A stretch of 39,369 bases of DNA, from the NCBI GenBank assembly GCA_013001465.1, contig JABDMM010000054.1, positions 1 to 39,369 of the forward strand, in the 5' to 3' direction. The position numbers and the translations under genes are program-made. The notes under the pieces were generated by a model. That model did not search any database. It was not told the origin of the DNA and saw only the letters and a list, made by a program, of their open reading frames with translations. This DNA is from Chitinophagales bacterium (GTDB lineage: Bacteria > Bacteroidota > Bacteroidia > Chitinophagales > JABDMM01). Below, one piece after another: positions 5,825 to 35,957 of the stretch. Each line of letters starts with the position of its first letter. Position 1 is the first letter of the stretch.

Positions 5825-5830
5825 CTTTAG

Positions 5831-5904
5831 TGGGCCCTGTAGGGCTCGAACCTACGACCCCCTGATTATGAGTCAGATGCTCTAACCAACTGAGCTAAGG
5901 GCCC
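5831..5904 (-). tRNA. tRNA with CAU anticodon (Met or lysidine-modified Ile2)
   Basis: The minus strand gives a complete 74-nt cloverleaf: 7-bp acceptor stem GGGCCCT/AGGGCCC, discriminator A, D-arm GCTC/GAGC, anticodon stem TCTGA/TCAGG (one T-G pair) with loop CTCATAA, and T-arm GTAGG-TTCGAGC-CCTAC. CCA is not encoded. The CAU anticodon fits elongator Met or Ile2. The body (TTAGCTCAGTTGGTTAGAGC, GGTCGTAGGTTCGAG) resembles Bacillus-type Ile2 as I remember it, so Ile2 is a real possibility. It does not look like initiator tRNA, since there is no GGG/CCC run in the anticodon stem. Confidence 0.93.
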
Positions 5905-5976
5905 TTCTCTAAGTTTTCCTGCTTGGAGAACCAGGAGATTGTTTTTTTGGGTATGCAAATATACACTCTTCTTTTG

Positions 5977-6521
5977 AATTGAGGATGGAGAATGGAGGAG
6001 GGAGAGTTTTAGTGTGGCTTCGCCACATCGTTTAATTTATTTTACTTGTCTTTACAATTGCAGTCAAAATTCTTAGAATTTCTTGAAGCTGAATGTTTGC
6101 ATATTTTATCCTCTCAGCATTAATATAATTCGCTTCCAAAACAATTTGGAACCAATATTCCGTTTCTCTTGCTTCTTTGAGTGCAATTGTCATTTTATGG
6201 ATGAAGTCTCTTTTCGATTCTGCCTCCTGGGCTTCATGAACTAATGCTCCGATAGCAGAAGCTGAACGCATTAGTTGTTTCGACAAAATAAACTCACCTT
6301 TATTTGATTTGAGATACTTATAAATATCAATAACACTTAGAGTAAATTTTACAGTTTTTTGTACGATAACATTTTCCTTTCTCACCAGTGCAATCTACAG
6401 TTCTAAGTGTATGAATCGAAATAAGTCAAACGCTTAAATAGGATTTGTCACTTGTATGTTATTGAAGATTCCAGAATATTACGATGTGGCGAAGCCACTC
6501 CACAATTCTCCATCCTCAATT
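5977..6521. mobile_element. Composite inverted-repeat element enclosing a four-helix-bundle gene
   Basis: Two blocks are repeated in inverted order at the ends: 17 bp (5977-5993 against 6505-6521) and 18 bp (6014-6031 against 6481-6498). The inner block contains the hairpin TGTGGC-TTC-GCCACA. The spacers between blocks differ (20 and 6 nt). The left outer arm runs in 7-bp units (GAGGATG, GAGAATG, GAGGAGG, GAGAGTT; 5981-6008). The inner left block begins 1 nt before the stop codon of the enclosed gene, so gene and repeats form one 545-bp unit. Calling it mobile is inference from this architecture. Confidence 0.55.
6032..6385 (-). CDS. Four-helix bundle protein, 23S rRNA intervening-sequence protein family
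   Basis: 117 residues, nearly all helical. It matches the four-helix-bundle/S23 family (TIGR02436-like) through the N-terminal part (FILSKQLMRSASAIGALVHE, about 33-52), AESKRDFIHKMTIALKEARE (about 55-74) and the closing helix. Family members are encoded in intervening sequences of some 23S rRNAs and, in Bacteroidota, as stand-alone genes; they are related to the Avd protein of diversity-generating retroelements. The molecular role of the stand-alone form is unknown. There is no rRNA, reverse transcriptase or template repeat here. Both sides carry matching inverted repeats, and about 95 nt separate the start from the inner right repeat. Confidence 0.85.
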   Translation of the reverse strand: MRKENVIVQKTVKFTLSVIDIYKYLKSNKGEFILSKQLMRSASAIGALVHEAQEAESKRDFIHKMTIALKEARETEYWFQIVLEANYINAERIKYANIQLQEILRILTAIVKTSKIN

Positions 6522-6953
6522 TTCCTTCATTCGTTTCTCCAATTCATCCTCAGGGACATCTTCCTTGTGCTGACCAATAAACCAGCTGTTTCCCATTGGT
6601 CCGGTCACTGATGCGTTTCTATCGCCATAGAATTGATCTGCTGGTTCCCGCACAGATGTCGCTCCGGCTTCTATCGCTTTTTGATAGTACTTATCGCAGT
6701 CATCGCAATAGATGTAGAGCATAGAACTGCTCACGTTTGTTGGGTCATTTGCCCTGCCCATCATGAGCATCGCATTGCCGATCTTCATTTCGGCATGATT
6801 GATCTTGCCTTCGTCGTCTTTCATACTAAGAAGTTCTTCGGCTTCGAAGGCGTTGCTTAGAAAGTCCATAAGAACTTCAACATCTGTCACCACAAGGTAT
6901 GGAGTGATGTTAGTATAGCCTTTAGGTAATCCGTCGCTTGTCATAGTTTTCAA
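6516..6953 (-). CDS. VOC-superfamily (glyoxalase/PhnB-like) protein
   Basis: A 145-residue cytosolic protein with the paired beta-alpha-beta-beta-beta layout of the VOC fold: ITPYLVVTDVEVLMDFLSNA (about 16-35), HAEMKIGNAMLMMG, then a second half with YIYCDDCDKYYQKAIEAGA and GDRNASVTGPMGNSWFIGQH. The closest style is the PhnB/YdeI-type branch. The family includes metal-dependent lyases, isomerases, dioxygenases and antibiotic-binding proteins, and nothing here fixes the reaction. The stop codon (6516-6518) lies inside the outer inverted repeat of the neighbouring element, so the C-terminus may have been reset by the insertion. An octamer array starts 17 nt upstream of its start. Confidence 0.8.
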   Translation of the reverse strand: MKTMTSDGLPKGYTNITPYLVVTDVEVLMDFLSNAFEAEELLSMKDDEGKINHAEMKIGNAMLMMGRANDPTNVSSSMLYIYCDDCDKYYQKAIEAGATSVREPADQFYGDRNASVTGPMGNSWFIGQHKEDVPEDELEKRMKEN

Positions 6954-6970
6954 TTTTTAATGTTCAACGC

Positions 6971-7042
6971 CCTCAATACCTCAATTCCTCAATTCCTCAA
7001 TGCCTCAATGCCTCAATGTCTCAGCGTCTCAATTCCTCAATT
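6971..7042. repeat. Octamer array, unit CCTCAATN
   Basis: Nine consecutive 8-bp units: CCTCAATA, CCTCAATT twice, CCTCAATG three times, TCTCAGCG, TCTCAATT, CCTCAATT. It lies immediately upstream of the VOC gene (start 6953) and so in its leader or promoter region. Units vary mainly at the eighth base. Period and degeneracy match the arrays at 23435-23700 and 35878-35957, though the unit sequence differs. Confidence 0.85.
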
Positions 7043-22735: not shown

Positions 22736-23434
22736 ATGAAAGCAATTCTTTTTTCATTCGCAGTTTTGATCTCTTCAATGGCATTTGCACAGGAAGAAGA
22801 GGTTACAGAATTTACTCCGGCAACAAAGAAGGTAACAGCATCAAATCAGGACAGGATCGTGCTTGACTTCACTTTCGACAACTGGAAGAACGACATAGAT
22901 CAGTTAAAAACCAAATGGTATTCGAGGGGGTTCGGATTTGCTTTCATGTATGATGTGCGACTGAAGGAGTCAAAGTTTAGTGTTGCTCCTGGAATTGGTT
23001 TTACGTCGAATAGTGTCTTCTTCGATGCGTTATTGGTCGATACCGGTAAAGCCGCATTTGATTATGCAGCTTATGAGACTCGCAATATCAAGAAAAGTAA
23101 GTTCAATACGGTATTTCTGGAAATTCCACTCGAATTGCGATTTCGAGCGAATCCAGATAATCCTGCGAAGAGCTTTAAGTTCGCGATCGGCTTTAAAGCA
23201 GGATTAAGAATTGACGCGAAGACAAAGATCAAGGAAGAGATAGGCACTCAAACTAAAGTTTTCAAAGACAAAAGATGGGAAGATGCTGAGACGTTCCGTG
23301 CAGGTCCTACTGTGCGAATGGGTTACGGTCCGTTTAATGTGATCGGATTCTATTCTATAACCAATGTTTTCAAAAAGGGTGAGGGTCCGGAAGTAACTCC
23401 TTGGTCTATTGGTATTTCGCTAAACGGACTTTAG
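22736..23434 (+). CDS. Outer-membrane beta-barrel protein (PorT/OmpW-like)
   Basis: 232 residues. A signal peptide (about 1-18, ending AFAQ) is followed by an acidic stretch and then a small barrel: GFGFAFMYDVRL, SVAPGIGFTSNS, TVFLEIPLELRFR, KFAIGFKAGLRI, RAGPTVRMGYGP, FNVIGFYSITNVF and a C-terminal SIGISLNGL. This matches the outer-membrane beta-barrel proteins common in Bacteroidota (PF13568-like). The role is unknown. The stop codon (23432-23434) directly touches the left octamer array, which fills the gap to the convergent enoyl-CoA hydratase gene. Confidence 0.78.
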   Translation: MKAILFSFAVLISSMAFAQEEEVTEFTPATKKVTASNQDRIVLDFTFDNWKNDIDQLKTKWYSRGFGFAFMYDVRLKESKFSVAPGIGFTSNSVFFDALLVDTGKAAFDYAAYETRNIKKSKFNTVFLEIPLELRFRANPDNPAKSFKFAIGFKAGLRIDAKTKIKEEIGTQTKVFKDKRWEDAETFRAGPTVRMGYGPFNVIGFYSITNVFKKGEGPEVTPWSIGISLNGL

Positions 23435-23507
23435 TTCATGTGCTCATGAGTTCATGTGCTCATATGCTCGTGTGCTCATTTGCTCGTGAGTTCATGTGCT
23501 CGTTGGA
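23435..23507. repeat. Left inverted octamer array
   Basis: Consecutive 8-bp units such as ATGTGCTC, ATGAGTTC, ATGTGCTC, ATATGCTC, GTGTGCTC, ATTTGCTC and GTGAGTTC. The array begins at the base after the stop codon of the barrel gene. It is the reverse complement, in style and largely in sequence, of the array at 23633-23700. Confidence 0.85.
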
Positions 23508-23559: not shown

Positions 23560-23632
23560 ACCATTTTCTGCACCTATCCAAATTTTCAAATTGAGTTAGC
23601 TCAAGACTGAATTTATCTCCGAACACTATAGA

Positions 23633-23700
23633 TGAACACATGAGTAAATGAGCACATGAGCATATGAGCACATGAACTTATGAGCAAATGAGCAAACGAA
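23633..23700. repeat. Right inverted octamer array
   Basis: GAACACAT, GAGTAAAT, GAGCACAT, GAGCATAT, GAGCACAT, GAACTTAT, GAGCAAAT and GAGCAAAC, period 8. It ends at the base before the stop codon of the enoyl-CoA hydratase gene (23701-23703). Paired with 23435-23507 it would give an imperfect stem of almost 70 bp. Confidence 0.85.
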
Positions 23701-35683: not shown

Positions 35684-35779
35684 AGTGATCAGATTGTCTG
35701 TACTAAATATAACAAATCGCTCAAACTATTGATAGTAAAAGGATATAAGAGTTAGCTTCATGACGAAAATATGACAAAG

Positions 35780-35809
35780 CGGGAATCGGGAATCGGGAGT
35801 CGGGAGTCG
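35780..35809. repeat. Heptamer array, unit CGGGAAT/CGGGAGT
   Basis: CGGGAAT twice, then CGGGAGT twice, then CG: four exact-period 7-bp units. It is the left part of a compound repeat (with 35859-35869 and 35878-35957) in the 305-bp gap between the T9SS-tail gene and the gene at 35989. I see no gene in that gap. Confidence 0.85.
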
Positions 35810-35858
35810 TTGGTTGGAAGTTGACCTAAATACAATGTAAGTTGTGAGTATGAAAGTT

Positions 35859-35869: not shown

Positions 35870-35877
35870 CACCGCAC

Positions 35878-35957
35878 GAGCAAACGAGCACATGAGCAAA
35901 CGAGCACATGAGCAAACGAGCAAATGAGCAAGCGAGCAAATGAGCAAACAAGCACAC
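35878..35957. repeat. Octamer array, unit GAGCA(A/C)A(C/T)
   Basis: Ten consecutive 8-bp units: GAGCAAAC and GAGCACAT alternate, then GAGCAAAC, GAGCAAAT, GAGCAAGC, GAGCAAAT, GAGCAAAC, AAGCACAC. It is the same unit family as at 23633-23700. It ends 31 bp before the next start codon and is only in one orientation here. Confidence 0.9.

Follow-up and report, generated by a model that had tools for sequence, protein, structure and literature searches.

A four-helix-bundle gene framed by inverted heptamer arrays looks like a little-noticed insertable element of bacterial operons

We analyzed a 39,369-nucleotide contig (JABDMM010000054.1, hereafter the window) from a Chitinophagales metagenome-assembled genome (MAG; 3.0 Mb, about 92% complete), in which a unit at about positions 5977 to 6521 encloses a four-helix-bundle (FHB) gene of the PF05635 family between two pairs of inverted arms. 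On balance, this unit is probably a stand-alone, operon-dwelling relative of the intervening sequences (IVSs) of 23S rRNA that is mobile on evolutionary time. The same package recurs in operons of several phyla, and clean empty sites exist in sister species, which suggests an insertable element that has drawn little attention. PF05635 genes are common, yet their annotation says no more than "four helix bundle protein," and the literature that we searched (partial coverage, with few subscription journals or preprints) held no description of an array-flanked stand-alone element.

Results

The FHB gene of the window is packaged between inverted arms

The unit and its neighbors comprise the following features.

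6032..6385, minus strand: FHB gene (PF05635/TIGR02436), 117 aa, GTG start, predicted pI 9.6
5977..6000, plus strand: left outer arm, 3' of the FHB gene, degenerate 7-mers ATTGAGG/ATGGAGA/ATGGAGG, with similar arrays elsewhere in the genome
6014..6031, plus strand: left inner arm GTGGCTTCGCCACATCGT, a small hairpin in itself, abutted by the FHB stop codon
6481..6498, minus strand: right inner arm, 5' of the FHB gene, exact inverse of 6014-6031
6498..6521, minus strand: right outer arm, inverse of 5977-6000, holding the stop codon (6516) of the glyoxalase-like open reading frame (ORF)
5970..6530, minus strand: the unit as a predicted RNA hairpin, with paired arms and the FHB gene in the loop (minimum free energy, -152.9 kcal/mol; z = -6.35)
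6516..6953, minus strand: glyoxalase-like ORF (PF00903), upstream co-directional neighbor
5830..5904, minus strand: tRNA-Met(CAT), downstream co-directional neighbor

An initial annotation of this DNA had placed the gene within 17-bp and 18-bp inverted repeats, and both are indeed exact: AATTGAGGATGGAGAAT (5977-5993) is the reverse complement of 6505-6521, and the inner arm at 6014-6031 is that of 6481-6498. A repeat search merged them into longer arms, 5984-6031/6481-6528 (48 nt, 83%) and 5977-6000/6498-6521 (24 nt, 92%). The annotation also read a TGTGGC-TTC-GCCACA hairpin in the inner arm; its core, GTGGC-TTC-GCCAC, is present on both arms, but the outermost T/A pair is found on the left arm only. 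The inner block is made up of GTGGCTTCGCCAC, a small palindrome, together with ATCGT. The outer block, rather than being a plain inverted repeat, is a short array of degenerate 7-mers (ATTGAGG ATGGAGA ATGGAGG AGGGAGA). When the unit is folded as RNA, the two arms close the stem; a second RNA fold gave a z score of -3.15. The kinship with 23S rRNA IVS proteins that the annotation had proposed is borne out by the profile matches of the gene, at 82.4 bits for PF05635 (cut-off, 33.8) and 92 bits for TIGR02436 (cut-off, 24); the closest solved relative of the protein is 2rld (E = 1e-29).

To compare arms among loci we used a gapped inverted-flank score, with 201 ORFs in 293 kb of the window's genome as controls. 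The FHB gene of the window scored 56, above every control ORF (mean, 19; maximum, 38), which agrees with a package about 545 bp long. Five PF05635 genes are present in the genome, each flanked by arrays and each with a different repeat. All four that could be tested scored between 55 and 210 (controls, ≤38; Fisher p = 1.4e-8), while the fifth lies at a contig end and is too short for scoring.

Unique flanks had been named in the initial annotation as grounds against mobility, and the flanks proved not to be unique. The 63-nt left end of the unit has 14 matches in the MAG, and GTGGCTTCGCCAC has 10 exact matches (a reversed control pattern, none), in both cases mostly gene-less. The complete two-block end recurs at about ten further places, again mostly without a gene, and several of these matches have the design array, GTGGCTTCGCCAC, interior, inverse, array, some with unlike arrays on either side. 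The genome's four other FHB copies lack the palindrome, as do the relatives' copies that we inspected, and a two-block end common to several places is particular to this genome. Overall, 293 kb of the genome held 45 arrays, mostly of period 7 to 8, and shuffled sequence held none.

Within the window, the octamer arrays at 23433-23488 and 23630-23699 (TGCTCATG / CATGAGCA), 141 bp apart and between two ORFs, form an inverted pair without a gene, and solo short-repeat arrays occur at 6964-7042, 35771-35818 and 35871-35957 (of the CCTCAATT, ATCGGGA and GAGCAAAC types). Elsewhere in the genome, gene-less GTGGCTTCGCCAC units are clustered at L032 19773-19930 and at L033 187-330, 1041-1282 and 3055-3165 (contig C135); in two units of this cluster, the array type differs between the sides.

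Inverted arrays are the rule for the PF05635 family

In the order, 122 of the 150 genomes considered carry PF05635 genes, with up to 16 copies per genome. Their flanks reach a score of 30 or more in inverted orientation at 49 of 73 loci and as direct repeats at 6 of 73, a level of inverted match reached by 0.33% of random positions. In the larger comparison across the order, which the annotation had suggested and in which one genus was sampled in depth, matching inverted arms were present at 103 of 146 loci. The same holds on plasmids: of 20 FHB loci drawn from five phyla, 19 reach a score of 35 or more, nearly always with period 7. These come from Cyanobacteria (Nostoc, Anabaena, Aulosira, Dolichospermum, Planktothrix, Euhalothece, Pseudanabaena and Gloeocapsa) and from Treponema (Spirochaetota), Monoglobus (Bacillota), Chlorohelix (Chloroflexota) and Bernardetia (Bacteroidota). 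The inverted-array architecture is therefore the rule for the family, across phyla.

Arms consist of degenerate repeats in tandem, most often 7-mers (range, 7 to 8; 39 of 53 arrays from the order have period 7), and the repeat differs from copy to copy. Arms agree within copies and not between them: the match within a copy exceeds the 99th percentile of mismatched pairs at 52% of unique loci. The 5' arm is poor in C when read in the sense of the gene (8% C), and some loci have the layout [GT array][CA array]ATG-FHB-[CA array]ATG-next gene. That the arms are tandem arrays, that the architecture crosses phyla and that the gene usually lies in sense within operons are points absent from the initial annotation.

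Away from FHB genes, we counted 4 arrays in about 349 kb from 10 FHB-bearing relatives and none in about 319 kb from 10 genomes lacking FHB genes. As a relation between array number and FHB content (10 FHB-rich versus 10 FHB-lacking genomes), this difference is not significant (p = 0.08). An internal 5' hairpin was also considered as a general feature and rejected, since it passed the threshold at only 4 of 146 loci. In one case (L054 1-1399), an FHB-arm heptamer array also occurs in frame within hsdS, where it encodes repeated QLLVDSS/QLLDDSG heptapeptides.

Units are gained and lost together with their arms

The annotation had proposed a search for empty sites in relatives, and clean ones exist for other members of the family. 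We compared the pyrH|frr, fadB|fadA and thiolase|truA junctions within one 18-species genus of the order. The pyrH|frr gap is 544 to 547 nt long and holds the arrays and an FHB gene in 2 species; it is 13 to 51 nt long in the 14 other readable species, among them the closest sister. The fadB|fadA gap is filled in 6 species, free of the element in 6 and occupied in 1 by a decayed remnant just upstream of fadA, of which the arms and the last part of the FHB gene are left (L230, G097). At thiolase|truA, the gap is about 470 nt in 2 species and 2 to 49 nt in 7 others. None of the loci with common flanks lies in rRNA, which discounts 23S rRNA copies as their source and makes the shared flanks orthologous operon sites.

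Observations outside these junctions point the same way. Two copies 2.6 kb apart in one genome, a recent duplication, encode proteins that are 92% identical, and their DNA homology takes in the left array. Two sister species of another genus share a unit (81% identical) that sits at different positions in a type I restriction-modification (RM) operon, and related FHB proteins occupy many different sites within one genus. Together, the empty junctions, the near-identical copies and the displaced sister units lend support to the view that the unit comes and goes with its arms. The mobility suggested in the annotation is partly supported, by the empty sites of other family members and by the second copy within a genome; the arms, however, do not qualify as fixed ends of a transposon, since every copy has a repeat of its own and most lack the GTGGCTTCGCCAC block. 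For the window copy, the closest relative of its glyoxalase neighbor shows 57% identity, and its genus and family consist of this genome alone. As this copy lacks a close relative, it is from the family that we infer that it was itself inserted.

The empty pyrH-frr spacer of the closest sister (L204, G141) contains a short CA-rich array (CCTAATTACCTAATAAACTAATTACC), which could be a solo arm remaining after loss of the element.

FHB genes lie in sense within operons and are under purifying selection

In the window, the glyoxalase-like ORF, the FHB gene and tRNA-Met are all on the minus strand, and the glyoxalase ORF extends with its 3' end into the right outer arm. No promoter-like site above chance was seen upstream of the FHB gene, which probably has no promoter of its own. 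This placement is typical: 59 of 67 FHB genes have neighbors on both sides that run in their own direction, compared with a fraction of 0.33 expected under random insertion and of 0.45 among ordinary genes. The operons have no common function (pyrH/frr, fadB/fadA, RM and BREX/DISARM), and the plasmid units are found within type I RM, BREX/DISARM-like and cas1-cas2 loci. At orthologous sites, FHB dN/dS is about 0.02 to 0.09; this purifying selection indicates that the protein matters to the element or to the host.

An RM operon that holds a PF05635 gene also contains a second four-helix-bundle-like ORF (190 aa; L055 2205-2777).

A model for the element, and the search for its mover

We propose a widespread class of small hairpin elements in which a promoterless FHB gene would form the loop and inverted degenerate 7- to 8-mer arrays the stem. 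Such an element occupies an intergenic gap of an operon, and its gene would be translated in sense as part of the host's RNA. There, pairing of the C-poor 5' array with a G-poor 3' array would enclose the FHB gene within a long stem. This stem may, as in 23S rRNA IVSs, be a target of RNase III, which could make the insertion tolerable to the operon; processing of the unit at the RNA level is likewise suggested by that analogy. The FHB protein may bind the hairpin. Over evolutionary time, the element would enter and leave operon gaps with its arms.

Repeat slippage and template-switch correction of quasi-palindromes are established mechanisms. Acting together, they may be what keeps the arms complementary within a copy while they diverge between copies.

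No moving machinery was found for the window element among the reverse transcriptases and Y1 transposases considered in its genome, and the unit is presumably moved by machinery acting in trans. A reverse transcriptase (RT) in trans was rejected, as RT genes are present in 54 of the 150 order genomes versus 122 for FHB genes, and the window's genome has no RVT_1 match; the element does not require a resident RT. The single Y1 transposase gene of the genome (Y1_Tnp; L037 16900-17840) lies beside a different hairpin repeat (GAACCCCATCGGGGTTC / CAGCCCCTTCGGGGCTG). It too was rejected as the mover, being unlinked and flanked by a palindrome unrelated to GTGGCTTCGCCAC.

Discussion

Like the 23S rRNA IVSs, the window unit has a gene of the PF05635 family, falls in a size range of about 430 to 545 nt and has inverted ends that form a stem around an ORF. 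IVSs with an S23p/IVP ORF are known from Leptospira, Coxiella and Salmonella; they have inverted ends and an ORF in the loop, are excised by RNase III and have been suspected of a mobile origin since 1993 (PMC4990558). Unlike them, the window unit lies in an intergenic gap of a protein operon, and its arms are copy-specific degenerate 7- to 8-mer arrays. The only structural RNA gene in the window is the tRNA, and the loci of 20 relatives gave no Rfam match. Membership as a 23S IVS thus fails on location, and an IVS-like way of working is, by comparison, the best-supported reading.

If hairpin elements do insert in operons, the odd spread of PF05635 over unrelated operons would be explained, an origin would be suggested for intergenic heptamer arrays, and 23S rRNA intervening sequences would be extended to mRNA. 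The pyrH|frr, fadB|fadA and thiolase|truA junctions would then be sites at which to study movement without a transposase of the element's own. More speculatively, there may exist cross-phylum "operon intervening sequences," an idea that we regard as possible rather than probable: selfish inter-gene hairpins that are translated from, and perhaps excised from, host mRNA, move with self-homogenizing heptad arms, and have given rise to the heptamer arrays of Bacteroidota and Cyanobacteria and to the FHB genes in RM, BREX, DISARM and CRISPR operons.

Several observations weigh against a mobile element. About 30% of order loci have no above-threshold arms, and neither a target-site duplication nor an excised form was seen; between filled and empty pyrH|frr and fadB|fadA sites no duplication was obvious, the spacers being too diverged for alignment. 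Copies within one genome are mostly old (median identity, 36%), and some FHB copies are antisense to their neighbors (cas2|FHB|cas1). At fadB|fadA, same-site copies are kept across species and even families, which vertical inheritance with loss fits as well as fresh insertion; the arms there match equally well across and within species (28.8 versus 29.2), indicating no lineage-specific co-evolution at that site. If mobile, many insertions must have been stable for long.

One rival reading is a useful, vertically inherited operon gene of the host, with the paired arrays serving as an attenuator or translation switch and patchiness arising by repeated loss. Purifying selection on the FHB protein is compatible with such a host function, occupation of fadB|fadA in several species and families agrees with it, and the layout in which CA arrays precede both start codons could act as a switch. 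We nevertheless consider it unlikely: with pyrH|frr filled in only 2 of 16 readable species, one gain is simpler than many losses, and a host gene accounts poorly for two near-identical copies within one genome, for related proteins at many sites in one genus and for operon contexts that are functionally unrelated. Alternatively, inverted arrays could be an independent genomic repeat in whose existing hairpin loops FHB genes settle. In the window's genome, 43 arrays in 293 kb are without any gene, some combining unlike arrays with the same inner block, so that there the arrays could have come first. That order of events has, in our view, a small chance of being right in general, given the scarcity of arrays off FHB genes in the relatives, empty junctions that mostly have no array, and a duplicated copy that carried its left array along.

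A unit moved by a REP-associated tyrosine transposase (RAYT, of the Y1 type) or by another transposase recognizing GTGGCTTCGCCAC, with the FHB gene as passenger, would resemble REPIN/BIME repeats and miniature inverted-repeat transposable elements (MITEs), which are likewise short inverted-end units with many gene-less copies. Pairs of GTGGCTTCGCCAC do recur, mostly gene-less and usually with arrays outside them, and the genome has one Y1 gene. Unlike REPINs or MITEs, however, FHB units have heptad-array arms, no terminal inverted repeats conserved among copies and no associated transposase that we could find, although empty sites in relatives, expected of MITEs and insertion sequences, exist at three sites of other family members. 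No RAYT gene flanked by the same palindrome was seen in the MAG (about 92% complete), the Y1 gene having its different hairpin repeat, and copies of the same architecture in this genome and its relatives do without GTGGCTTCGCCAC. We judge this account very improbable. Avd of diversity-generating retroelements shares the fold family with the FHB protein but differs from it in profile score (NF033474, 26 versus a cut-off of 80) and in that the window's genome has no RT.

The reading of the unit as a mobile, IVS-like element of operons also touches on known heptamer arrays. Cyanobacterial STRR sequences are intergenic heptamer arrays, and the window arm, a short degenerate 7-mer array, conforms to that description. 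TAACTGA arrays, described as direct arrays of one fixed heptamer, are intergenic in Beggiatoaceae, Cyanobacteria and Bacteroidetes, and a term search of that paper found no mention of FHB genes (PMC4679880). FHB arrays resemble both in being tandem intergenic 7-mers, often just 5' of start codons. TAACTGA and STRR arrays are patchily shared by Cyanobacteria and Bacteroidetes, with no transfer mechanism known. Unlike TAACTGA arrays, those of FHB genes are inverted pairs around a gene, and their heptamers vary.

In cas loci, 18 23S_rRNA_IVP genes have been counted and listed as an interesting associated function (PMC3936711). Our loci similarly place the FHB family inside defense operons (cas2|FHB|cas1, RM/DISARM/BREX), and the flanking arms suggest, from sequence, that the FHB genes in cas loci are insertions. 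Among the plasmid loci L254, L256, L257, L374, L375 and L378, FHB genes occur in DISARM/BREX-like and type I RM operons and in cas loci; the gene lies between cas2 and cas1 in L374 and L375 and adjoins cas1 in L378.
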